Assembly: GCA_019448385.1 (NCBI GenBank)
Contig: JAGTXO010000014.1
Span: 886,558-950,557, forward strand
Origin: Diacronema lutheri
Taxonomy: Eukaryota; Haptophyta; Pavlovophyceae; Pavlovales; Pavlovaceae
DNA: 64,000 nt
Reading direction: 5' to 3'
Positions 5,437-59,960 of this stretch are shown here, one piece after another. A model generated the notes under the pieces. It had not been told where the DNA came from, made no database searches, and saw only the letters and a list, made by a program, of their open reading frames with translations. The position numbers and the translations under genes were made by a program. How positions within the stretch are numbered: position 1 is the stretch's first letter; every line of letters starts with the position of its first letter.

Positions 5437-5619
5437 TTGACGCAGAAATGTGAATATGGGAAACCAATAATGGTAACGGGCGGCCGCGGCGCGTGGCGGG
5501 CGGCGCGGTGCGACACGTGCGGTACGCTCTACCACCGCGACTGGACGGCAGCGCGCAACATCTACCACGACGTGCTCGACATGGTCCGACATGGTCGCCG
5601 ACCACCTCGGCATGCGTGA
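5437..5619 (+). pseudogene. Fanzor (TnpB-like) nuclease remnant, C-terminal zinc ribbon and RuvC-III only
   Basis: About 60 codons survive. RCDTCGTLYHRDWTAARNIY matches the end of TnpB/Fanzor proteins: the second CxxC of the zinc ribbon followed by the RuvC-III aspartate in HRDWTAARN. Upstream of KCEYGKPIMV there is no nuclease body, so RuvC-I and RuvC-II and most of the protein are missing; the break coincides with AT-rich DNA. It is only distantly like the full Fanzor at 11725-15522 (DRDFNAARNIY there), so it is not a simple duplicate. It ends inside the start of the next decayed transposon-type gene on the same strand. Confidence 0.7.
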
Positions 5620-8600
5620 GCGCACCACGTCCGAGCGTGGCCGCTTCGAGCGCGTCAAGCAAGGCTGGGAGCGCGCGCTCCGCACCCACAAGGAGCACAA
5701 GGAGGACGAGGAGGGCGCCGACGAGGCCGGCACGGCACGCGACGGCGGCAGCGGCGGCGACGGGCACGGCGCGCGCGGCGGGCCCGGCGGGCGCGGCGGG
5801 CGCGGCGGGCGCAGCGGGCGCGGCGGGCGCAGCGGGCGCGGCGGTCGCGGCCGCGGCGCGCGCACGGCCGGCGGCGCAGCAGCCGCCGCTGCCGCCACCG
5901 CCGGCACAGCCGCGCCCAGCGCCGGCGCTGGTGCTGGCGGCTCACGGCGCGATGGCCGTGGCGCGCGCCGCCGTGGCGCCAGCCGCGGCGCTCCGGGCGG
6001 CGGCGCTAGCGGCTCGAGCTCGCCGACGCGCACGCCGACGGCCAAGCGCCTTCGTTGGGCCAGCGCCGCAGCCGCGAGTGTTGCAGCGCCCGGTCGGCCG
6101 GCTGCAGCCATACGGCGGGGCGGCTCGGCCAGCCCGAGCACGCGCGCCGCGCCGCCGGGCCCGAAGCGGGCCCGGCCGAGCCGCGGCCGCACGCATGACG
6201 CCGCCGCCGCCGCGCGCACCCGCGCGGACACGCCCACCGACGAGGCGGCGCCGCTCGGCCGCAGTGCGGCAGCCGCGCGTCCGATGCCCGCGCAGCGCGC
6301 GGCAAGCAGCGCGGCGGCGGTGGGCGCCAAGGAAAGAGGTTCCGGGTCCTGCAAGCCGATAAGCGGTGTGGCGGCTCGCCGGCGGCCGATACCTGCGCCG
6401 CCGACGCGAGTCGTCGAGCAGTCGAGTCTCACCGACGCGCAGCGCGTGCTCCCCGTGCAGAAGAGGGTCGCTGCGTTGCAGCGGCGGCAAGCGCACTTCG
6501 GCGGAAGGGTAGGCGGTCAAGTGGCGTCGCAGCCCGCGCAGCTGCCGGAGCAGCACTCGCAGTCGACCGGAGACGGGAGCGCCGCATGTACTGCCGAGCA
6601 CCACGCCGCCACGCGCGCGCCGCTTCCGCGCGTGACGCTCGCGCAGCCGGCTGCGCAGTCAGCCTCGCACGCGGCGAGCGGCTGCGGCTCGGCAATGCCG
6701 GCGCTCTCCCCGCCTGCGCTCGAATTGCCGCCACCCGCGCGCGCCGCAGCAACCGTGCCGGCGGGCTGCGCGCCGGCAGCGGACGCGGGTGGGACGTTCG
6801 CGGGCGTGCCGCCTGCCGCCTCTGCGGGCATGCCGCCCGCGCCGGCGAGCGCGCAGCCGGCGCTCGCTCCACCGAGGCGGCTCGCCGCCTGGCCGCTGAC
6901 GGCACCGCCCACCGCCGTCCCTCGCGCTGCCGACTCGACGCGCGAGCTTGACGCCAAGCGTCTGCTCTTCTCGCACGACGGAGAGCGGCAGCTGGCGAGC
7001 CTGGTGCTCGATACGCTCCGCCTCAAAGTCGGCGGCAAATTGCCATTCGTCGAGCTTCGCGGCTCCGCTGGCGTGCGGCGCGGAGAGCTTGTCCTCGAGC
7101 AGCGCGGCGGCAATCTGATTGGAGAGGCTGTGCGTGCCATGCTGGCGCAGACTATGCCCGAGCGCCCATTCTACACGCCGCCGGCGCCCGCCGTCACGGC
7201 GCTGCTGCGCAACCCGCCGGGCGGGTGGACAGCAGAGACGCGAGCTGAGGCGCGCGATGCGTTCGCCATGCCGCCGCACATGAGGTGCGTCATTGTCGCG
7301 CCGCACGTCTACTTCCGTGCCGAATGCGCCGCGGACCCGCGCTTCCGCGTCGATGGCGACCCGCAGCTGATCATCTGCCCGTGCCCCAAAGTGCATGAGC
7401 AACGAGTCGATCTGCCGCACGCCGATGACGGCCGCCCGCTTTGTCTACGACTTTGGCAGCACGATATGCGTGTTCAGCGAGGTGATCCACTGCAAGGCGT
7501 GCGGCGCGCAGGCAGCGCTGAGCTCGCTCCTCGACAAGCCCGACTACATGCCTCTTGCCGTCCGCCATAAGTACGCCGAGATCATGCTCATGCCCGTCGG
7601 CGCCGTCACGATGCGACTCGCACAACACTTTTTCATCTCGACATGTGCAATGTCGAAGCTTGCAGAGCAGCTGTCGGCGTCGATCCTCCTCAGCCGGCCT
7701 CTTGCGGAGAGCGAGTACCTGCGCTTTGTCGAGCAAGAGCAGCATGCCGAGCGCTCACGGCGCGCGCAGCATCGGCAGACGACGCTCCACGACTTTCTGC
7801 CGGGCTCGGTGCCGCTCGTAGCCGGGGCCGACCGCAGCGAGTGGCCTCCGTTCATGCGCGTCGATGCGCCCAACTCGCCCATCACACCGGACAACATCCG
7901 CACAGTTGTTATGCGCGCCGGAGGGAGAGCTTCTCGCCGCGCTCCTCCGGCTACGCGCGCGCTTCGAGCGCATGGGCACGTTGGCGGGCGTCACGGTGTG
8001 GTACCCAGACTTGTGCTGCCTTAGGTGCACGCAGGCGCAGCTGAGCCAGCACGTCCTGGTCGACCTCTTCGACAACGTCACGCGGCGCCCTTTGCTCCAC
8101 CCCTTCCACGCTTGCAAGCGCACCGGTGACACGCTCCACGTCGCCAACCAAGAGTACGCGACCGCCGTCAAGCGGGACCTCGCCGCCGCGCTATTCGAAG
8201 CGCAGATGCCGGACGTCGATGCCGTCGCGCAGCACGTGGCTCTGCAGGCGCGCAGCGACGTGGCAGCGGCGAAGGCGTCTGTGCTGTCCAACCTTTAAAA
8301 AAAAAGCAAGTACAGAAGGAATGGTGCGGTCCGGATGGCGACGCGTGCGCCGACTGAGGCTGCGGCGCGCTCGAGCTCAAGTGGACGATCTTCACGGAGG
8401 AGCAGCCCACTTTGTCGCCTGTGCGCCCCTCCAAGGGAAAGGGGTCTGGCCGTGTTCTCGACACCTTCGAGTCGCTTGCCTCTTTGAGGTCATGCGTCTC
8501 GCGCGGCTGCTTGCACGACCCGTTCCCGCCGCCCGAGATGTACACTCCCGTCGGGCGCGCGCACAAAGACGGCATGCTCGTAAGGTACATGGCCATGCGC

Positions 8601-9012
8601 GGCTCTGGGCTCGTCGAGGACCTCAACTCGTTCATGTGCCCGCTCGTCGAGGGCGCCAGCTTGGTCTGCTGCCTCGTACCGTACCTTTTCCCGCTTGGTG
8701 GCGCACGCTCGCGTCGCACGGCGGCGGTTCCGGCGGGGCGCGCAGGCGAACGGTCTGTCGCCCGAGTGGCATCCGCCCGCGGTCATGGCAATGGACGGCC
8801 TCGCGTACGCCTTCAATGAGCGTTGGGTGGCGTCTTTTGCCGATCCTGCGGGTGGCATTGGCGCGGACCACGCCGACTACGAGCCGATGGGCTGGAAGTA
8901 CGAGCCGGACAATCGTGCGGCGCGGCGCGAGTTTGACGAGCTCGTGGACGCGCGGGCGCACATGAGGCTTGCGGCGTTGCAGGCATCACCGCTCTCATCC
9001 GAATCGCCGTAG
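5591..9012 (+). pseudogene. Frameshifted transposon-type protein (zinc ribbon plus DCC/LDLF core)
   Basis: A 660-codon frame (5591-7570) starts with a long Gly/Arg/Ala-rich low-complexity region (to about 6900) and then becomes ordinary protein. Near 7435 the homology moves to a second frame (7395 onward), near 7925 to a third (to 8298), and after an A9 run at 8297 and an in-frame TGA at 8356 to further frames ending at 9012. Read across the shifts it shows CPCPK...CKACGAQ (ribbon-like), then WYPDLCC and VLVDLFDNVTRR...HPFHA. This resembles the D-CC/LD-[FI]-H arrangement I associate with DUF6729-type repetitive transposon proteins of algae and animals. The later part contains EDLNSFMCPLVEGA and EWHPPAVMAMDGLAYAFNER. 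At least four disruptions argue for a dead copy, unless several are assembly indels. Family placement is tentative. Confidence 0.5.
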
Positions 9013-10133
9013 CCGCCCTCGCAGCAGCAGAGCCCGTTCTCGCAGCAGTCGCCGCCGCCCTCGCAGCAGCCGCGCGCCAGCAAGCAGAGCCTGCAGGGCC
9101 ACCCTCTTCCAATTCAGTACCAACGCTGTCGAGCCGCGATATCCGTCGCGAGCGGAGCGCGCGCTTGCGGTGGAATGCCTGGCGACCGCAATCTACACCT
9201 GTGGATCGACGAACGAGGGCGCCGTGTTCAAGGCGGCGCAGGCGCACTACACCTCCGCGTTGTTGCAGCGTTACTCACAGCCCGCTGGCGCTGGCGTGCC
9301 GCCGGAAATCAGCATCCCGTCGGCCGGTGCCTTCCGCAGCATCTCGCGCGCGGCCTCGGAGCAGCATGCTGCTGCGTCCATCGACGCGGCCGTGACGGGC
9401 AGGTCATCACGCGAAGCGGCGCGGGCAGGTGCGGGCACACGCCGCTGCGAGCACTCCTGCCACACGCTGCTCACCAGCGCGCCCCCTCGCCTTGTGCTCC
9501 CGCGTTTGCCGTGTGCAGAATCAGAGGAGGGCGCGCCGGCCGCGGCCGGGCTCGCGTCGCTACTCGCGCTCGAGTTTCAGCGCCAGCACCTGACGCCTGT
9601 CCTCGCGCGCTCTGTGCGTCCTCCCACAGCAGGTACGCTCAAACGCCGTCGCTTCTCCAGTTCACGCGCGCCTTTTGCGCCTCGAGCGCGAGGGGGCCTT
9701 GCCCTGACCGCGCCGCCCCAATCCCCTCCCGTCGCGAAACGAGTGCAGGCTGCGCACACGCATGTGCCTTTGCGCAGCCGCCCTACTACGCTTCCGCGCC
9801 CCGGCTCTTTCCAGGAGCCATGCACGGCGCCTCCGCGCTGCCTACCGCTGCGGTGCCAGCTGCAGCAGCCCGCGCTCCCACCGTCAGCGCACGAACCGAC
9901 GAGCTGCTGCAGCTTGCGAAAGAGGGCGGAGCTGTGCATGTGCGGGGGCTCAATAAGGCAAACACGCGCAAGCTCGCGACCACGCTGTGCGTGCTCCAAA
10001 ACAACAGGTCGCTCGACCAGATCAAGGACGGTGTTGTCGCGGCGCTTGGCAGCGCGCGGCCGAGCGATGAGGAGCTCGGTGCGTCTCGACCGGAGAAGCG
10101 CGCGCGCAAGGAAGAGGGGGGGGGGGGCTGCAA

Positions 10134-10171
<38 letters not shown>

Positions 10172-10220
10172 GGCCCGCGGAATTCGTAAAGGCCGGGCGC
10201 TCGCCTGCTATGACGACGTA
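9013..10220 (+). other. Unresolved region with coding-like segments
   Basis: No gene model could be closed. Two stretches look like real protein: about 9100-9410 (FSTNAVEPRYPSRAERALA and following, to about EQHAAASIDAAVTG) and 9820-10130, which starts at an ATG after a TTCCAG acceptor-like site and encodes DELLQLAKEGGAVHVRGLNK, followed by an Arg/Lys-rich end (RPEKRARKEE). The second has the feel of a small helix-extension-helix module but I do not recognise it. They may be late exons of the decayed element to the left or of a separate gene. The region ends in a 38-nt G run (10133-10170). Confidence 0.35.
10133..10170. repeat. G38 homopolymer
   Basis: Uninterrupted run of 38 G following a shorter G11 run (10116-10126). 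Length is probably imprecise in any assembly. Confidence 0.9.
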
Positions 10221-11724
10221 AGCGGCCGGCGTGTGGTCGGTGCCGGGCGCTCAAATCGGAATCGGCGGCCGTGGAGGCGCACATCGACGCACTCGACGCG
10301 GAAGTTGCAGCACACGCGATGCGACCGCGCACATCGTGGGCCGCCGCGCCGGCGGGGCGCGCGCGAGGGCTCGCCATCGCGCTCGGCGATAGCAAGCCTT
10401 CGCGTGGCGAGTCAGCCGATAGCAAGCCCTCGCGTGATGCCGAAGGCGTCAACGCCGAGCCCTGCGATGCGGTTCAGCGGACGACGACCGGCTACGGCGT
10501 CGCGAAAGCTGCTCTTGTCCGTCGCGCCTGGCGAGGACCTACCCCAACCCACTCGCCGTGCGAGTGGCGGGATGGTGGCGTGCCAGCGACGCTGCCACGC
10601 CTGTGACGCACCGGGGCGCAAAGAGGGTCGAGCACACGTGCGCGAGCGGGTCAAAGTTCGCGTTCCAGCACGTTGCCACGTCAGCCGGCGGCAACCGTGC
10701 CGACTTCTCATGCCGTACAGCTGCCTGCCGTAATTTGACGAGAGCATGAGCTTGCCGATGTGCGCGCGCACCATGTGGATCCGCTTGCGACCCTCGGCGT
10801 TGAGGTGCGCGTTCCTCGTCTGCTTTCTCGCCGTCAATCTGCGCCTGCGTTCAGGAGCTGATGTTTCTGGGCGGGAAAGGCCACGAGGATGGCGGCCGCC
10901 GGCGCCGGAGGCCAAGACGACGCGGGGCATGAAGTGCGGGCGTACGCGCTGCGACACCGTGGCACGCTTGAGGGCGTGCCGCCTCCTCAACGTCTACACA
11001 CCGCCGAGCAGGGAGGACGGTGGTGGGGTCGGGATGGCGCTGGCCGATCCGGCCACGTTCCGTGTAGTTCCGCCGAGGTCCCGAGCTTGCACAGCGTCGC
11101 GTGCGGCCTCAGCCCGAAGCATTGCCAGCTCAGCACGGCGACCATCCAGGCCATGCACGTCCAGCTCTATGCCTTTGCCACGGCGAACATCGGAAAGGCC
11201 GTGCGGTGAAGCTCATCAAGCTGGGCGTCTCGCTCTTCACCGGCAGGCACACCAATGGGCGCGTCGCAAAGCACATACACCGGTGCCCACGAGTTCGGCC
11301 TGCGTCTGGGCCCGGACATTGCCCCGTCCACGACCGACTCGGGGGAGGGGCTCGCGCTCCGCCAAGGACGGCCGGGCCCAGACGCAGGCCGGACATTGCC
11401 CCGTCCACGGCCGTCCGGCTAACGTACGACTCGGGCGCGGCCGCACACTCGTACGAGAGTGCGTCCACGCCCGAGTCGGTAGGCAGCACTGAGACCATGC
11501 CCGGGCGCTCGGCGCGCGTGCGCGGTCGACCGCATCGTGAGTATCACCGCGCGGACGCGCTTTCGGCAAGCGGGGCAGCGGCACGCTCCACTGTTCCGAC
11601 TCGACGCACACTCGAACCGGCCTCGTACATTCGCCGGACGCACACTCAAACCGTCCGGACTTGCGGCGCGCTGTGTGTTCGACCCGCCGCCGCCGCCATC
11701 CACCCAGTTCGGCGGCGCTCGACC
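10221..11724. other. No gene recognised; sequence upstream of the Fanzor frame
   Basis: Small frames on both strands do not look like conserved protein. One (10271-10606, plus) carries a duplicated DSKPSR segment. The main structure is a pair of repeats at 11297-11409, listed separately. The region may contain 5' untranslated sequence or the left end of the Fanzor element; no terminal inverted repeat was matched to the right flank by eye. Confidence 0.4.
11297..11409. repeat. Inverted repeat overlapping a direct repeat, upstream of Fanzor
   Basis: A 19-bp perfect inverted repeat pairs 11297-11315 (GGCCTGCGTCTGGGCCCGG) with 11372-11390. A 21-bp perfect direct repeat (core GGACATTGCCCCGTCCACG) occurs at 11312-11332 and again at 11389-11409, each copy overlapping one arm of the inverted repeat. 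This compound structure is not explained by coding sequence. Confidence 0.85.
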
Positions 11725-14700
11725 ATGACGGCGCGGCTCGTGCCCATCACGCTCGCCATCGCCGCCTGCTTTGGCGCGGCGCGCGGCACAGGGCTGCTCG
11801 AGACCGCGCCGCTCGCCCTCTCCGCGTCTTCGTCTTCGGCCTCGCCTCTCGCCGACGCCGTCTCAGTCGTCGCGCCGCGGCCCGCCGACATGCTCACCGG
11901 CGGCACCGTCGTTCCGAGCCTGCGCAACGTCGGCGGCATCGTGGCGCGCTCCGCATCCTCCGCTCTGCTCGCCGACGCCAAGGACGGCCGCACGTACGCG
12001 CCGCCCGACGGCGGCGCGCGCCGCACGGCGCAGGCGTCGCGGCCGCCGCCGTCGCCGTTCGCGTCGATCGTGCACGAGCGCCGACGCAGCCGGCGGGAGC
12101 GCCGGCAGGAGGCGCTCGCAGCGCGGCGGCGGGCGAGGCGGCTCTGCCGCCGCCGGCTCTGCACGAGCGCGCGCGTGCCGCCGCGCGCGCGAGCGGCGCG
12201 CGGCGCGCGCGCCGCTGCGCTCGCGCTGTGCTGCGCAGGGCTGGCGTGCTCAGCCGCGTGCATGGCCGGCCGCTGCGCGACCGTCGCGCTCCCGCCCATC
12301 GCCGCCGAGCTCGCCTTGGTTGCCAAGCTGAGCGCGCGCGCCGCGTGCGAGTGGGCGCTCGCTGGAGGCGTTACACGCGACGGCGCGATCGCGGCTGCCA
12401 GCGCGTTGGCGCAGGTGTGGGCGACGACGCGGCTGCACACCGCCGCCCTCGCGATGCTCGGCGGCGGCCGCCGCCGCCACGAGCCTGCGCGCGGCGCGGA
12501 CGCTTGCGCGCGAGCGAGCGACGAGGCGTCCGCGCCCGCGCCCGAGCCGTGCGCGCAGTACGGCGCGTGCGAGCCTCGACACGCCGCCGGCGGACGCGGG
12601 TCGCGCTGCGATTCGCGCTCGCGCGTGCCGCCGCGCGAGCAACCGCCGCGCGTTTGGCCGCCGTTCCTCCTCTCCGAGCCGCGATGCGACTTTCGGCGCT
12701 ACCTCTACCAAGGCGGGATCGAGCGGCTGGAGCATTACGTCGGCGCGCACAGGACCGACATGGTGATGGCCCACCTCGCCGAGCAGGACAAGTTGTACGC
12801 CAAGAACTGCGACGAGATGGGCCAGCCACGCATGCGCACTGCCGTGCAGCTCGCGGCGGCGGCGGCTGCGCGCGCTTCCGACGCTGCGCGCAGCGCCGCC
12901 GCCGCGCTGCCCGCGCCCGCCGCGCCGCTGCCGGCCGCCGCGCCGCCTGCCGCCGAGCCCGCGCCGCACGCCGAGGCCGAAGTGTGTGGCGAGTGCGAGC
13001 CGGGCGCGCCACGAGCGTGCGCCGATGGCGGCGAGGCGGAGGCGCGCGCCGGCGCGGCTCGCGCCGACCGCTCGCCGCTGCCGCCCGCCGCTGCTGCCGA
13101 CGCACGCGCAACGGCGGGCGCGCGTGCGCCGCGCATGCCGTCGCGCCGCGCGTGCGGTGCGCGCTGCGCGCACGGCTGCGCTGCCACGGGCGGCGATGAG
13201 CGCGCGAGCCGTGCAGCCACCGGTGCGACCAGCTGCGCTGACGCCTCCTCTGACGCCTCCTCCTCGGGCGAATCCCTCTACGCGGGCTCGGACTCTGACT
13301 CCGACAGCGGCGACGGCGGTGGCGGGCGCGGCGGCGGGTGCGGCGGCGGGCGCGGCGGCGGGCGCGGCGGCGGGCGCGGCGGCGGGCGCGGCGGCGGGCG
13401 CGGCGGGCGTGGCGGACGCGGCGGACGCGGCGGACGCGGCGCCGGTGGCGGCGGTGGCGGCGCCGGCGGCGGCGGTGGCGGGCGTGGTGGCGGGCCACCG
13501 CGGAAGCGGCGGCGGCACGTGCGCGCCACGCAGCGGACGAACGCGCTCGACGACGCGGACCGCGCCCAGTCCATCAAGCTGCAGCTGAAGACCATCGTGC
13601 GCCCCGCCTACCTACAGCGCATGCAGGACTTTGCGGTCAAATTTGACCGCATCGCCGCGCTCGCGATCGAGGTCGGCGTCGACTTTGCCGAGCGCGCGCT
13701 GCGCTCCGGCGAGGAGCTGCCCGCCGTGTGGACGGAGTCCTACTGGAGGGCGGTCATCTGGGCCGTGACGCGGAGGGCAAACGCGACAGGCGCGCCTCCG
13801 CAGCACGGGCAGCTCGGCGCTGACCTCGCGGACTTTGCCGGCGCGCACCACGCCGTGCTCGCGGCGGGCGGGCCGATCGAGGTCGCGTACATGAAACCGC
13901 CGCTTAACTTCCTCGCCGCGCAGCTCACGACCAACTACGTGAACCACGTGCGCACGTCGGGCCTGTACGGCGCGCTCGAGGCGCTCGTCAAGGTGCACCT
14001 CGCGAGGGCCACGCGCGCCGAGCAGGTTGCTGCGGCTGGGCTCGCCGCGCCGCCGGCCGGCAACGGCGCGCTGTCCGCACAGACGATGCGGCACGCGCGC
14101 CGCCGCTGCACGCGGCTCATCTGGCGCGGCCAGATCGACGACGCGTCGCTGCCCGCGGCGCTGCGCGACGACGACGACCTGCTGCGCGAAGTGCTGCCCG
14201 CTTGGGAGCTCTTTGACGCCGACTACGATGGCGACCACAACATGGGTTGGTACCTCAATCGCCCGCCGGGCGAGAGCAACAACGTGGGCGACGGGTACAG
14301 GGCGATGCTCCGCGTGCTCGACGCCGCGCGGCAGGCCAACGGCGACAAGCCGATCGGCCCGAAGCGCCTTCCGGGCAAGAAGAGCCTCATCGTCGGCCAC
14401 TTCCTCCGCATCGACGCCGAATTCCTCCAGCATTGGCTGCGCTGCACCGAGGACTTTGTGCGGGCGTTTGGCAGAGGCTGCGACGCGGGGCGGCCGATCA
14501 CCGCAGGCAGCAACCGCACGCGCATCTTCAACGTGGTGTTCAAGATGGACGTGTCGCGCGCGCTCCGGCGCGCCAACCGCGCGGGTGGCCACGTCTCGTC
14601 GATCCAGACGGACGGCAAGGCCGCGTCCGTCCTGCGCACGTGCGACGCGCCGCTCGCGAGTTGCCTTGGCGGGCGCGACGAGCTCGGGCGCACCGACTAC

Positions 14701-15522
14701 CTCGACCGCGAGACGCTGCGCCGCTACACGCCCGAGCAGATCGTCGTGTTCGACCCGGGCAAGAACAAGCTCTTCTTCGCGTGGGCGTGCGCGCTGTTCG
14801 GCGCGACGCGTCCGCGCACGCTCAGCTGGTCGGCGGCGCGGCACCGGCGGCTCGCCGGCGAGCGCCGCGCGACGGAGCGGATGCTGCGGCGCAAGAAGAT
14901 GACGGTCGTGCGCGGCGACCCGCAGCGCCGCTCGATCGCGCAGCTCGAGGAGGCGCTCGCGGGCCGCGACGGCCACGGCGCGCCGCTGCTCAACGAGGAC
15001 GAGCGCCGCGAGGCGCGCGAGCTGCTGCGAGGCGCGTACGGGCACGAGTGGTTCCGCACGCACCGCATGCACGCCTACTCCAACCACCAGCGCGCGCACA
15101 GCAGGATGGTCGACGCGTTCGCGGCGACGTACGGCGGGCCGAGCGAGGTCGTGATCGCGGTCGGCGACTGGAGTCTGCAGCTGCACTACCCCAAGTTTGG
15201 CAAGTGGCACGAGCGCGGCAAGATGCCGTCGCAGACGATGGGCATCGTCGACGCCTTCCGCGCGCGCGGCTACACGATCGGCTTCATCGACGAGAGCTAC
15301 ACGTCGCAGGACTGCAGCAAGTGCGACGGCAAGAGCTGCTGCGACTTCTTCACCAAGACGCGCCGGCAGGTCCGCGTGCGCAAGCACGACCCGTCGAGCC
15401 CGATGACCAACCGCGTCGTCAAGACGCTCGTGCGCTGCGCGTGGTGCCGAACCATCTTTGACCGTGACTTCAACGCCGCGCGCAACATCTACAAGAAGGC
15501 GCTCGAGCTGCGCGGGCCGTGA
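11725..15522 (+). CDS. Fanzor RNA-guided nuclease (eukaryotic TnpB-like), with N-terminal extension and RGG box
   Basis: Open for 1265 residues from the ATG at 11725; the frame is open further upstream, so the start is uncertain. The nuclease body is about residues 610-1265. RuvC-I is VVFDPGKNKLFFAW (Asp1010). The usual RuvC-II position reads VIAVGDWS (Asp1148, no glutamate), and a glutamate 42 residues later (Glu1190, FIDESYTSQDCSKC) fits the relocated acidic residue reported for Fanzors. The zinc ribbon is CSKC (1197-1200) and CAWC (1238-1241), followed by RuvC-III DRDFNAARNIY (Asp1248). Before the body lie a Ser/Asp acidic patch, an RGG/RG-rich stretch (about 531-592) and a basic RKRRRHVR that could be a nuclear signal. 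The first 530 residues are Ala/Arg-rich with a signal-like start and may include unspliced sequence. In TnpB/Fanzor systems the protein cuts DNA guided by an RNA from the element's 3' side. No frameshift is seen in the conserved part. Confidence 0.85.
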   Translation: MTARLVPITLAIAACFGAARGTGLLETAPLALSASSSSASPLADAVSVVAPRPADMLTGGTVVPSLRNVGGIVARSASSALLADAKDGRTYAPPDGGARRTAQASRPPPSPFASIVHERRRSRRERRQEALAARRRARRLCRRRLCTSARVPPRARAARGARAAALALCCAGLACSAACMAGRCATVALPPIAAELALVAKLSARAACEWALAGGVTRDGAIAAASALAQVWATTRLHTAALAMLGGGRRRHEPARGADACARASDEASAPAPEPCAQYGACEPRHAAGGRGSRCDSRSRVPPREQPPRVWPPFLLSEPRCDFRRYLYQGGIERLEHYVGAHRTDMVMAHLAEQDKLYAKNCDEMGQPRMRTAVQLAAAAAARASDAARSAAAALPAPAAPLPAAAPPAAEPAPHAEAEVCGECEPGAPRACADGGEAEARAGAARADRSPLPPAAAADARATAGARAPRMPSRRACGARCAHGCAATGGDERASRAATGATSCADASSDASSSGESLYAGSDSDSDSGDGGGGRGGGCGGGRGGGRGGGRGGGRGGGRGGRGGRGGRGGRGAGGGGGGAGGGGGGRGGGPPRKRRRHVRATQRTNALDDADRAQSIKLQLKTIVRPAYLQRMQDFAVKFDRIAALAIEVGVDFAERALRSGEELPAVWTESYWRAVIWAVTRRANATGAPPQHGQLGADLADFAGAHHAVLAAGGPIEVAYMKPPLNFLAAQLTTNYVNHVRTSGLYGALEALVKVHLARATRAEQVAAAGLAAPPAGNGALSAQTMRHARRRCTRLIWRGQIDDASLPAALRDDDDLLREVLPAWELFDADYDGDHNMGWYLNRPPGESNNVGDGYRAMLRVLDAARQANGDKPIGPKRLPGKKSLIVGHFLRIDAEFLQHWLRCTEDFVRAFGRGCDAGRPITAGSNRTRIFNVVFKMDVSRALRRANRAGGHVSSIQTDGKAASVLRTCDAPLASCLGGRDELGRTDYLDRETLRRYTPEQIVVFDPGKNKLFFAWACALFGATRPRTLSWSAARHRRLAGERRATERMLRRKKMTVVRGDPQRRSIAQLEEALAGRDGHGAPLLNEDERREARELLRGAYGHEWFRTHRMHAYSNHQRAHSRMVDAFAATYGGPSEVVIAVGDWSLQLHYPKFGKWHERGKMPSQTMGIVDAFRARGYTIGFIDESYTSQDCSKCDGKSCCDFFTKTRRQVRVRKHDPSSPMTNRVVKTLVRCAWCRTIFDRDFNAARNIYKKALELRGP

Positions 15523-16170
15523 GCGACGGGGCTGCCGCCGGACACGAGCGCGCGCGCGCGCGCACCGCGCGCTCGTGTCCGGCGGCGCAGCCCCCTCGCC
15601 GCTCGCTCGCGCCCGAGCTGACGCGCGCGGCCGCGCGCGTGGCGAGCTCCTCCGCTCGCCACGCACCGCGGTTGCCGACGCGCGCTCGCGCAAGCACCAC
15701 CACCACGCCGCAAGGCGCACAGACCTGCACGCTCCGTACGGCGGCGCTGCTGTCGGAGGCAAGTTGCTTGCCTCCAGCAGCAGGCCGTCGGGCCGATCCG
15801 CCCCGTGCATGTGCACGGGGCGGTCGGGCACTTGGGTTACCGCGTCCGCGGATCGCGCGCGCACAGGCGCGCGCGGCTGCGTTCGCGCACAGGCCGCTAC
15901 TAGGTGTGCGGTCCCCTCTGCTCGGAGTTTGCGCCGATGGCACAGGCCGCCGGCGTCACGCAAACGAGGTCACATCGTCTGCCGCAGTTTGGGCTCGCCC
16001 AGTTTGGGCGAGCCCAGCTGTGGGCCCCCGACCGAGCTGGTCGGGGGAGCGTTGCTTTCTGGATGCGGCGGCCCCAGAGAGCGCGCCCCTGCCCCTGCGG
16101 TCGGCGCGCGTGCGCGCGCCGACCGCAGGGGCCAGGGTTGCGATCATGTATGGGGCGCACAGGCGCCCTA
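15523..16170 (+). ncRNA. Serial-hairpin region 3' of Fanzor, candidate guide (fRNA/omega-RNA) locus
   Basis: Starting a few bases after the Fanzor stop there are at least nine strong hairpins with little between them. Arms: 15528-15554 with 15566-15594 (about 27 bp, one 2-nt bulge); a perfect 20-bp palindrome at 15621-15640; 15641-15646 with 15655-15660; 15755-15763 with 15767-15775; 15798-15809 with 15812-15823; 15854-15862 with 15867-15875; 15990-16001 with 16005-16016; 16025-16033 with 16039-16047; 16091-16110 with 16113-16132 (20 bp); 16153-16158 with 16163-16168. Two of them share an ACAG loop. Fanzor guide RNAs are known to come from the 3' end or flank of the gene, so the location fits. 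The same DNA would also lie in the 3' flank of the convergent TPR gene, so a 3'-end or terminator role is the alternative. No guide boundary can be fixed from sequence alone. Confidence 0.4.
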
Positions 16171-16382
16171 TATATGGCAGGCGGCTCACTCTTCGGCGGC
16201 GGCGGGCGGCGGGCGGTGTGGTGGTGCGGCCGGCGGCGCGGCCCCCGTCTGCGTATTCGCGGCGCGCGGCGGCTAGGCGCGAGGGGGCCGTTGGGCCTGC
16301 TCCGCCGGTCGCCTCGCTGCACGCACGTCGACGACGGCATTTATACTTCGCCCCCCTCTCCCCCCGGGGGAGGCCGCGGCTG
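16171..16382. other. GC-rich spacer downstream of the TPR gene
   Basis: No coding sequence recognised. A further small C/G palindrome lies around 16352-16372 just downstream of the TPR stop. Probably 3' untranslated sequence of the minus-strand gene. Confidence 0.4.
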
Positions 16383-57498: not shown

Positions 57499-59960
57499 AT
57501 GGCCGCCATCGACCTGCGCGCCTTCGACGCGGCGCTCGTCAACTGCGAGATCGTGAGCACGCGGCCGGTCAAGCCGAGCGAGCAGGCGCGCACGGTCGAC
57601 AAGCTGAGCTACGGGCCGTCGCGCCGCGCGCTCGCCTTCGTCTCGCCGCCCTGCGTCGTCGACTGGCCCGAGCTCACGGGCGACGGCAACTTTGGCACCA
57701 TGTACGGGCCGACGGACGTCGACAAGGCGGCGTACACGGCCGGCGTGACCGACAAGGAGCTGCCGATTGAAGGCGCGCCGCTCGCGCAGATGGACGCCTA
57801 CTTTGGCGCCCTGCGCGCCATCGACGATCAGCGCGTCGAGACGGTGCACGCGCGCCAGAAGGAGCTGCTCAACACGCGCGGCCTCTCGAAGGAGGAGGTG
57901 CGCGGCAAGCTCTCGCCCGCCGTCAAGCCCAAGTACGAGGACGACACGCTCGCGCACACGCGGCTGAACATGTCGACGCGCACGTTCACGTGGGCGGGCT
58001 CCGAGCGCGTCGTGCCGCTCGTCGACGCGCGGCGCGAACCGGTCGACGAGATCCGGCACGAGGACGTCTGCGCCATCGCCACGCAGCTCGACCGCGTCTA
58101 CACGGGGCTCACGGGCTCGATGTTTGGCACCAAGTGGAACGTGTGCGGGGTCATGCTCCTGAAGCGCGCCGAGCAGCGGCCGCAGCCCGGCTCGGACGCC
58201 TTCGCCTCGTACGGCGTGCCCGCCTGGGCCGACACGTTCGACTCCACGGGGCTGTACGTGCCCGACGAGCGCGAGCGCGCGGCGGCGCTCGCGGCGGTGG
58301 CCGGTCTGCGCACGGCGCGCGCGCCGGCCGGGCCGGGCGGGCGCGAGCTCGCGCGCGCGCAGGGCTACCATCGCGCCGAGCGGGCTGCGAGCGCGGCGGC
58401 GGCGCGCGCGGCGATGGCCGAGGGCGGCCAGCAGTGCGCGCTCCACGGCGCGGTCGTCAAATCGGCGCTGCGCGGCGTGGGCAACCGGCTGCATCTTTGC
58501 GACGCGCCGGGCGGAACGGGCAAGACGTTCGTCGAGCGCGCCATTATCGCCGCCGTGCGCGCGGATGGGCACGCGGTCGTCGTGGGCGCGTCCTCGGGCG
58601 TCGCCGCCACGCTGCTGCCCGACGGCCGCACCTTCCACTCGACCTTCAAGGTGCCCGGCGGTGCCGACTCCGACGGGCAAGCCGTTCAATGGCGTGCCGC
58701 GCTCCGAGCGCGGGCGCTCCCTGGCCGCCGCGGCGGCTGGTCGTGTGGGACGAGGCGCCGATGCAGACGCGGTGCCACCTCGACTCGCCTGATCGGTGTT
58801 TGCGCGACGTGACGGGCGTCGACGAGCGCTTCGGCGGCGAGACGCTGCTGCTCGCCGGCGACTTTCGCCAGTGCTTGCCGGTGGTGCGGCGCGGCTCGCG
58901 CGCGCAGATCGTGCGCTCCTGCCTCAAGTACTCGGCGCCGTGGCAGCACGATCGGCAGCACGCCTTGGTCGAGAACGTTCGCGCCTCGAGCGCGGCGCGC
59001 GACACGGGCGACGCGCTCGGCGCGGGCGAGTGGGCGGAGCTGCTGCGCAGCCCCGGCGACGGCGCCGTTCCCGCGGCGGTGCCGGCGGCCGGGGCCATGC
59101 CCGGCGCATTCCCGCTCGATCCCGTGCAGCTGCCCGAGGCCGTCGGCGGCGTCCCCATCCGCGTGGGCTCGGCCTACCCGACGGAGCTCGTGACGACTTT
59201 GTCCACGGCGCGACGTGTTGGACCGACGACGGCTCGCTGTGCGACCGCGCGGTGCTCTGCGCCAAGCAGACGGACGTGGCGCGGATCAACTGGCTGGTGA
59301 TCGGCCGCTTCCCGGGCGCGGCGGCGAGGTGCGCGTCGGCGGACGAGCTGGCGCGACGACGGGGCGGGCAAGCAGATTGCGCGGGCGTCGGTCGAATTCC
59401 TCGACTCGCTCGAGCACGCGCAGATGCCGCACCGCGTCCTCGACCTGAAGCCCGGGATGGTGGTGATGCTGCCGCGCAACCTCTCGCCCGGCGAGGGGCT
59501 GTGCGGCGGCACGCGGCTGATCGTGCGCGGCGTGCGCGCCGGCGGCCGGCTGCTCGAGTGCGCACGCCCCGGCGCGGCCGCCGGGCGCGACAGCACCGTG
59601 CTCGTCGCGCGTGTCGACCACCACTCGCCCGACGACGGCACGTTCGCGCTTGTGCGGATGCGCCGCCAGTTCCCCGGTGCGGCCGGCGTAACGAGGCGCA
59701 GGGGCAAGCGCTCGGGTGCGCGGGCGTGTGGCTCGCCGAGCCGTGCTTCACGCACGGCCAGCTCCACGTGGCCGCTTCGCGCGTCGGGCACACGTCGCGC
59801 GTCCGCTTTGCGCTCGGCGCGGACCTCGTGACGCGCAGCGTCGTCTTCAAAGAGGTGCTCCGCGCGGTCAGCGGTGGCGAGGCGGCGGCGGCGGCGCTCG
59901 CCGCGGCCGCCGTCGCCGCCGCGCGCGAATGCGCGGCGGCGGCGCGCGGTGGCGGCGGGC
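57499..59960 (+). pseudogene. Virus-type ssDNA-binding domain fused to Pif1/Helitron-type helicase, frameshifted
   Basis: The first 250 residues after the ATG (57499) include VDKLSYGPSRRALAFVSPP, DGNFGTMYGP and YFGALRAIDDQRVETVHARQ, which resembles the single-stranded-DNA-binding proteins of large DNA viruses of algae (tentative). Then comes a Pif1-type helicase: Walker A DAPGGTGKTF, VVVGASSGVAATLL, WDEAPMQ, LLLAGDFRQCLP, LKPGMVVMLPRN...GLCGGTRLIV, and EAQGQALGCAGVWLAEPCFT followed by HGQLHVAASRV. These are typical of Helitron and Pif1 helicases. The motifs lie in different frames, with shifts near 58690, 59195, 59365 and 59690, so the copy appears dead unless the shifts are assembly errors. 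No Rep nuclease domain was seen. Part of a mobile element of unknown limits. Confidence 0.65.

Follow-up and report, generated by a model that had tools for sequence, protein, structure and literature searches.

A chain of hairpins behind a Fanzor gene of Diacronema lutheri as the fixed 3′ end of an apparently one-ended mobile element

In a 64,000-nucleotide stretch of the genome of the haptophyte Diacronema lutheri (contig JAGTXO010000014.1, positions 886,558 to 950,557; hereafter the window), a Fanzor gene is directly followed by a chain of hairpins. Judging from a comparison of its genomic copies, this chain is the fixed 3′ end of a Fanzor element that appears to be one-ended and 5′-truncating, because the 3′ ends of the copies stop at 16168-16185 in 19 of 20 cases while their 5′ ends are scattered. 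The reading that we favour, with a probability of roughly 0.6, is that such an element would take the guide RNA of its Fanzor from its own 3′ end and that the longest stem of the chain was perfected by template switching. The element and its gene are laid out in the window as follows.

6377..16176, plus strand: the portion of the Fanzor mobile element that the window contains; copies lie elsewhere in the genome, and this one is 5′ truncated
11101..15522, plus strand: open frame holding the Fanzor gene; the first mechanical start is at 11101, and an in-frame ATG was read from the sequence at 11725
15262..15489, plus strand: Cas12f1-like TNB match with zinc ribbon and the motif TS-xx-C4-x5-RD (PF07282 and Fanzor motif)

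The gene preceding the chain can be assigned to the Fanzor group on sequence grounds, in line with the original prediction. The frame at 11101-15522 matches PF07282 (Cas12f1-like TNB) with 39.6 bits at a cut-off of 26.3 (E 5.7e-10), and it contains the Fanzor motif, given in the excerpted text of PMC3627910 as D-x(125,275)-[TS][TS]xx-C4 zinc finger-x(5,50)-RD, in the form D, 182 residues, TS-QD-C4-RTIFD-RD. Compared by sequence, SpuFz1 and the window Fanzor gave only E 0.38, and the predicted structure of the window Fanzor, with a pLDDT of 41, gives no backing to a nuclease domain. A 440-aa Fanzor query produced 78 matches in the genome, 14 of which cover the full query, 12 of these without a stop. 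No related Fanzor was confirmed in viral contigs.

The hairpin chain is a real and well-defined feature, and its parts to which the following text refers are listed here.

15521..16176, plus strand: hairpin chain of 656 nt, z −15.5; its local fold has 243 pairs in 23 helices
15521..15604, plus strand: first hairpin, with a perfect core at 15534-15586 (21 bp)
15982..16023, plus strand: hairpin whose 5′ arm core occurs in two forms across copies (helix 19)
16025..16047, plus strand: 9-bp stem in which one pair shows a G-C / G-U / A-U series (helix 20)
16087..16137, plus strand: longest stem, with a perfect core at 16091-16132 (helix 22); perfect in a young group of copies and imperfect in older ones
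16145..16176, plus strand: terminal hairpin with an ACAG loop, its last base being the 3′ end of the element according to the fold and the genome matches

The chain spans from the Fanzor stop (15520-15522) to 16176, and its first arm, with about 27 bp paired and a 2-nt bulge, begins 5 nt past the stop, exactly where the original prediction had put the start. The minimum free energy of 15521-16176 is −471.5 kcal/mol, compared to a mean of −363.6 in 20 dinucleotide shuffles (z = −15.5); 13 further 650-nt segments of the window, each compared with 12 shuffles, gave z values of −2.5 to +2.8. About ten hairpins can be counted by eye, and the 23 helices of the local fold include G-U pairs and small bulges. 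The earlier description of about ten perfect hairpins is therefore sound as to the chain and too strong as to perfection, because five stems are strictly perfect over at least 11 bp (21, 20, 12, 12, and 11 bp) and the others are interrupted. The block had been correctly located at 15523-16170, except for its end: the chain continues to 16176 and closes with the terminal hairpin, in which 14 positions are paired, two of them as G-U, around the ACAG loop. This loop had been noticed in two hairpins and is found in three in the fold, at 15863, 15942, and 16159.

Under strict settings (loop 2-12, mismatch −3, no low-complexity arms), a scan detected six stems scoring 9 or more in the 656 nt of the chain, corresponding to 9.15 per kb, as against 0.15-0.26 per kb in four other scanned parts of the window. 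Before the low-complexity filter, five stems scoring 14 or more were present in the 64 kb, two of them in the chain, and five first-order Markov resamplings gave a mean of 0.0 such stems. Chance as the origin of the hairpins is ruled out by these stem counts, the resamplings, and the shuffle z-scores. Hairpins are also not a common trait of the flanking sequences, since 0-2 stems were found in each of 15 right flanks (of 20 copies). In Rfam, no family matched the chain at its gathering score. Five sub-threshold matches were obtained, of which four concern microRNA families, a common outcome for long hairpins; the five could be taken to mean that the hairpins are small-RNA precursors or silencing triggers; with scores of 20.7-24.9 bits for all five against gathering scores of 74-124, we regard such a function as very improbable. 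A tRNA search of the window with the bacterial code found none.

The nature of the chain becomes clearer from its distribution in the genome (43.49 Mb, 103 contigs). The query 15523-16170 found at least 17 near-full-length copies at 95% or more, the window included, alongside three others at 87-90%, a single copy with 97% identity over 542 of the 648 bases, and at least 19 further partial or diverged places; these copy counts are lower bounds, 40 candidates having been scored. Flanks were examined for 20 copies, along with 19 smaller places. The common 3′ limit of the 19 copies falls beside the last hairpin, beyond which the flank is unrelated, and in the exceptional copy (L025) the homology ends at 16064. 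Nine of the 19 smaller places also reach the 3′ end (L034, L037-L042, L047, L049), and ten stop short of it (L035, L036, L043-L046, L048, L050-L052), some being weak matches; pieces without the 3′ end are found on C40 and C47, at C53:60.9-63.3 kb and at C1:126 kb, with small ones on C36, C71, and C93. With up to three mismatches, the last 25 bases matched the genome 29 times, and the reversed control did so 0 times. The diverged ends of L024, L027, L040, and L041 escape this pattern, and it detects four additional short places (L055-L058); the recognised 3′ ends thus total 33, of which two belong to a single duplicated place (L038/L039) and two are weak, L056 and L057 matching over 24 and 31 bp at reduced identity. 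A short TA-rich tail is seen at the fixed 3′ end, and no poly-A at the junctions displayed.

These alignments show that the chain forms the 3′ terminus of a mobile element that carries a Fanzor, is young and multi-copy, and ends at the last hairpin. The alternative that the hairpins are inverted-repeat insertions, which had been left open initially, is unsupported because the chain forms one block in at least 17 near-full-length copies at 95% or more and in the three at 87-90%; independent insertions are ruled out by its being a single block in all near-full copies. The chain is thus not absent beside other members of the family, an outcome that had been named as decisive at the outset, with the exception of copies carrying deletions in the chain (L034, L045). 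At L045 (C53:160803), the Fanzor match has no stops, yet the homology skips from 15543 to 15946.

The left ends of the copies show a quite different distribution. The window copy is cut at 6377, where its homology to other long copies starts, and the longest copies extend more than 2 kb to the left of that position. Other left ends correspond to window positions 15464 (L012), 15285 (L028), 15115 (L026), 14979 (L021), 14449 (L027), 14200 (L024), and 13281 (L017), and, at smaller places, to 15885 (L037), 15905 (L038/L039), 15962 (L040), 15976 (L041), 16033 (L042), 16086 (L047), and 16131 (L049). The shortest clear copy, L055, consists of the last 39 bp only, all identical. Matching places become fewer toward the 5′ end, in searches that scored the best candidates only. 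An internal deletion is found in L009. A left limit near 7975 is common to L020 and L022, and therefore a truncated copy may have been recopied or a region duplicated. Two copies are still alike up to the end of the compared stretch, within which no 5′ terminus occurs.

This combination suggests that new copies would be anchored at the 3′ end, with the terminal hairpin kept, and that copying would start there and halt at varied upstream points. A rolling-circle, one-ended DNA mode, as proposed for the Fanzor1 elements of Chlamydomonas, would seem to fit better than reverse transcription. A LINE-like, target-primed reverse transcription, in which the 3′ hairpin would be the RNA site for a reverse transcriptase supplied in trans and 5′ truncation would reflect incomplete cDNA, could also account for the scattered 5′ ends and for a 3′ end that is fixed and carries a short TA-rich tail. 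It is an unlikely alternative, if the least unlikely of those considered here, in view of the lack of a reverse transcriptase domain in the frames scanned, of target site duplications (TSDs) in the searches, and of poly-A at the displayed junctions. In 16 copies, the summed best match between flanks was 59, compared to 58.7 with re-paired flanks (P 0.49), and a wider search in 18 copies gave matches of 7-10 nt in eight, all more than 100 nt from the junction. The TSD candidates are a 7-bp one at L042 and an imperfect one at L058.

A mobility enzyme was likewise sought in the neighbouring frames. Neither a Rep/helicase nor a reverse transcriptase or transposase domain was detected in the open frames scanned by Pfam; with introns disregarded, the other open frames returned nothing at E <= 1 (seven of eight, the eighth being the Fanzor; three of three; six of six). 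Helitron_like_N was matched once in the genome. Upstream of the Fanzor, L031 and L054 (the C69 copy) contain orphan protein frames with a Cys-rich stretch and no Pfam match at E <= 1, which are a possible place for such an enzyme.

One copy offered a potential empty site. The right flank of L034 (C27) is 99.8% identical over 498 bases to L024 682-1179 (minus strand), which lies within a few kb of another element copy, on C11. The left flank of L034 does not continue at the L024 place, which is therefore not a clean empty site. This flank is similar to a different repeated family, which indicates that a rearrangement accompanied or followed the insertion.

The one-ended reading has a precedent in the Fanzor1-carrying elements CRe-1, CRe-2, and CRe-3 of Chlamydomonas reinhardtii, whose frequent 5′ truncation, internal deletions, and mostly intact 3′ ends are explained by one-ended transposition in the text available from PMC3627910. 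The window family resembles these elements in its Fanzor1 gene, 3′ terminal hairpin, 5′ truncation, and internal deletions (Bao & Jurka 2013, PMC3627910, as far as excerpted). In the same excerpts, TSDs accompany about 70% of CRe-1, 57% of CRe-2, and 10% of CRe-3 loci, whereas none is regular here; the CRe elements have ends common to Helitrons, and the window family has no Helitron ends shown. The 656-nt chain has no counterpart in the portion of the CRe description that was available (PMC3627910). Among Helitron2/CRe-type features, a 3′ terminal hairpin and 5′ truncation with mostly intact 3′ ends are both present, and TSDs of the type expected in most truncated copies (about 7-19 bp) were not found in the 16-18 copies. 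By analogy, the window family probably works like the CRe elements; it is left outside Helitron2 because the TSDs of the CRe families are missing.

Several features of the surroundings are recorded here. The GC content of the window is 64-80% in 2-kb steps. To the left of the element, at 5477-6326, lies a 5′-truncated fragment of another Fanzor family with many repeats in the genome, in which a zinc-finger end and an RG-rich tail can be read from the sequence. At 58626-59075, the window contains a PIF1-type helicase frame; 150 places of 414 candidates were scored for it, many with the same score, and about 17 of the scored places sit 24-27 kb from a contig start, a placement that might point to a subtelomeric Helitron-like element. 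Telomere-like repeats (CCCTCACCC/CCCTTACCC) adjoin the 5′ junction of a truncated copy, to the left of 1233 in L026 (C17:1-7000). The long copy L030 joins sequence resembling the helicase element at about 1611, in a poly-C run carried by both; from the sequence, the joint looks like recombination at this run. A long poly-G run lies within the element at about 10115-10171 of the window, and poly-C/G runs recur in copies and at junctions.

The persistence of pairing among copies was assessed by imposing the window fold on an alignment of 19 copies (243 pairs, 4196 cells). Standard pairs occupy 96.1% of the 4196 cells, compared to 95.6% in shuffles. Changes on both sides occurred at 18 pairs, against 4.7 ± 1.7 in shuffles (0 of 500 reaching this number) and 1-6 in six slid versions of the fold; these 18 pairs comprise 21 cells, 16 of the pairs are each supported by a single sequence, and several of these belong to the most diverged copies, for which the alignment is least certain. 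Further pair types numbered 74, against 70.4 ± 2.0 in shuffles (25 of 500). These figures are not probabilities, because the imposed fold was computed from the window sequence itself, giving it an advantage in the count of paired cells, and because the copies are related. RNAalifold kept 198 pairs, 12 with double changes, at an unfavourable covariation term of +5.55. In six older copies compared with the window (L023-L028), 135 of 2755 stem sites (4.9%) and 69 of 979 loop sites (7.1%) differ, and the Fanzor codon positions differ by 2.8%, 1.6%, and 2.6% (pooled coding 2.3%). The chain diverges more than the Fanzor coding part in five of the six, the reverse being the case in L026, in a comparison in which the coding stretch was cut where identity fell, lowering its divergence figure. 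Overall, pairing is largely kept in the aligned copies, and the stems are kept better than the loops.

Whether other Fanzors of the genome carry such structures was addressed with nine 3′ regions of other families or relatives, taken from the 78 matches, for which their own stop was mostly undetermined. Three of them (L059, L060, L061) form one sister family with 47-53% aa identity to the query and are structured in their first 650 nt, more weakly than the window chain (z −3.5, −7.6, and −5.9, respectively). The six others (L062-L067), at z values of −2.1 to +2.8, lack such structure there, and over the following 650 nt L062 reaches −3.7 and L067 −4.6. The chain as a general trait of the genome's Fanzors is not supported on this basis, six of the nine other 3′ regions lacking it in their first 650 nt. 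L059 and L060 remain similar as far as a comparable terminal hairpin, which ends in CCGTAT(A/G)TA, and diverge beyond it, and the sister-family end pattern occurs in the genome at one place only, that of L060 itself. In L061 (C28), a perfect 16-bp hairpin, partial in L059 and L060, is found at about 460-493, where the family sequence ends; its perfect extension is what a snap-back would leave, as far as the sequence tells.

Among the stems of the chain, the longest one (16087-16137) is particularly informative. Its perfect arm, TGCGGTCGG, is present in 12 of 19 readable near-full copies, and seven (L020, L021, L022, L023, L024, L027, L028) have internal mismatches in the arm, a further variant, TAAGGAGAG, being found in L020 and L022; the arm is unreadable in L025 and L026. 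Six of ten partial copies (L037, L040, L041, L042, L044, L047) have the imperfect TGTGGAGAG or a near variant, L038/L039 have a different sequence at the arm, and L045 and L048 give no complete reading. The two most diverged readable near-full copies (L027, L028) have the imperfect arm. The perfect arm is most simply explained as derived because it occurs in no readable diverged copy, and the perfection of the stem accordingly looks like a recent state. As the copy tree has one strongly supported fork among 14 inner branches, this polarity rests on divergence and not on the tree.

The change itself consists of four clustered substitutions in one arm, all to the complement of the opposite arm, which convert one G-U to a C-G pair and three mismatches to pairs. 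Clustered changes of this kind are the pattern of template switching, and one-step hairpin repair is a mechanism proposed for RNA genes in general in the text available from PMC8794818. From this clustered and polarised change, we infer that one arm of the longest stem may have been recopied from the other. In the stem at 15982-16023, the core reads GA in 13 and TC in 8 of the 21 copies read, with the diverged L026 in the TC set. The two forms fit repeated arm conversion or inversion, or recombination; arm homogenisation and spacer inversion are both named in the part of PMC8604942 that was available. The coding stretch on which the tree is based is identical in L019 and L023, yet the two differ in this stem, which shows that copies do recombine.

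The clustered arm conversion and the two core forms could also indicate that the hairpins have no RNA role at all and are by-products of single-stranded or snap-back DNA replication, perfected by template switching, and the snap-back-like hairpin at the point where L061 leaves its family sequence would agree with this. Such a purely replicative origin is nevertheless improbable to us, since scattered changes on both sides also keep pairing, including the G-C / G-U / A-U series at one pair, and loops change more than stems.

The remaining question is how the chain relates to the guide RNA of the Fanzor. The original prediction had placed the chain on the guide-RNA side of the gene, and this position is supported because 16176 is the last base of the element, and a Fanzor guide would begin in the unrelated flank that comes next. 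A multi-stem guide or several processed RNAs, as suggested in that prediction, would be candidate forms of an RNA from the chain. Considering position only, a plus-strand transcript of the 3′ end running into the flank would most likely supply the guide RNA, and the last hairpin or hairpins would adjoin the guide. This arrangement resembles that of SpuFz1 of Spizellomyces punctatus, in which the region after the Fanzor gene extends to where the element terminates (Saito et al. 2023, PMC10432273, in the excerpt available) and the RNA consists of a 75-nt scaffold and runs 14-15 nt into the variable flank (PMC10432273, same excerpt). According to that text, SpuFz1 loci have 30-nt inverted repeats at both ends in addition to this short scaffold, in contrast to the 656 nt of hairpins in the window family (PMC10432273). 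In the omega RNAs of GtFz1, SpuFz1, and PpFz1, stem loops also precede the guide, one to three of them between SL1 and the guide, compared to about ten hairpins on the candidate guide side here (PMC11423790, as excerpted).

It could be argued that all 656 nt of the chain serve as one exceptionally long omega RNA scaffold with many stems, bound as a unit by the Fanzor, because the chain occupies the interval from 5 nt past the stop to the last base of the element and keeps its pairing across copies. This is doubtful: in the passages available from PMC11423790, Fanzor1 scaffolds have only the one to three stem loops mentioned and the region past SL1 is described as not critical, the SpuFz1 scaffold is 75 nt long (PMC10432273, in part), and L045, with its Fanzor match without stops, lacks much of the chain. 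By analogy, only the last part of the chain probably serves as the guide scaffold, because known scaffolds are far shorter than the chain. A ten-hairpin guide RNA is a strong claim beyond present support, and the chain fits as a candidate by position.

Among the titles and abstract beginnings listed from an open-access library, none dealt with hairpins chained next to a Fanzor or with the Fanzors of Diacronema lutheri. A one-ended Fanzor element is of a known kind, and the hairpin chain is an unusual addition to it. The role of Fanzor cleavage and its link to element movement are described as an open question in the excerpt of PMC10432273. The 33 3′ ends of differing age, together with chain deletions and open Fanzor frames, constitute a natural test set, which addresses whether transposon end and guide scaffold are one structure. 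A stem passing from imperfect to perfect within one family would exemplify one-step hairpin repair. It is conceivable, at rather long odds, that the terminal hairpin is both the start of one-ended copying and the guide-side stem, and that the chain grows and is perfected by template switching in the same copying; if this were true, guide scaffolds would be born from the replication errors of the transposon itself.
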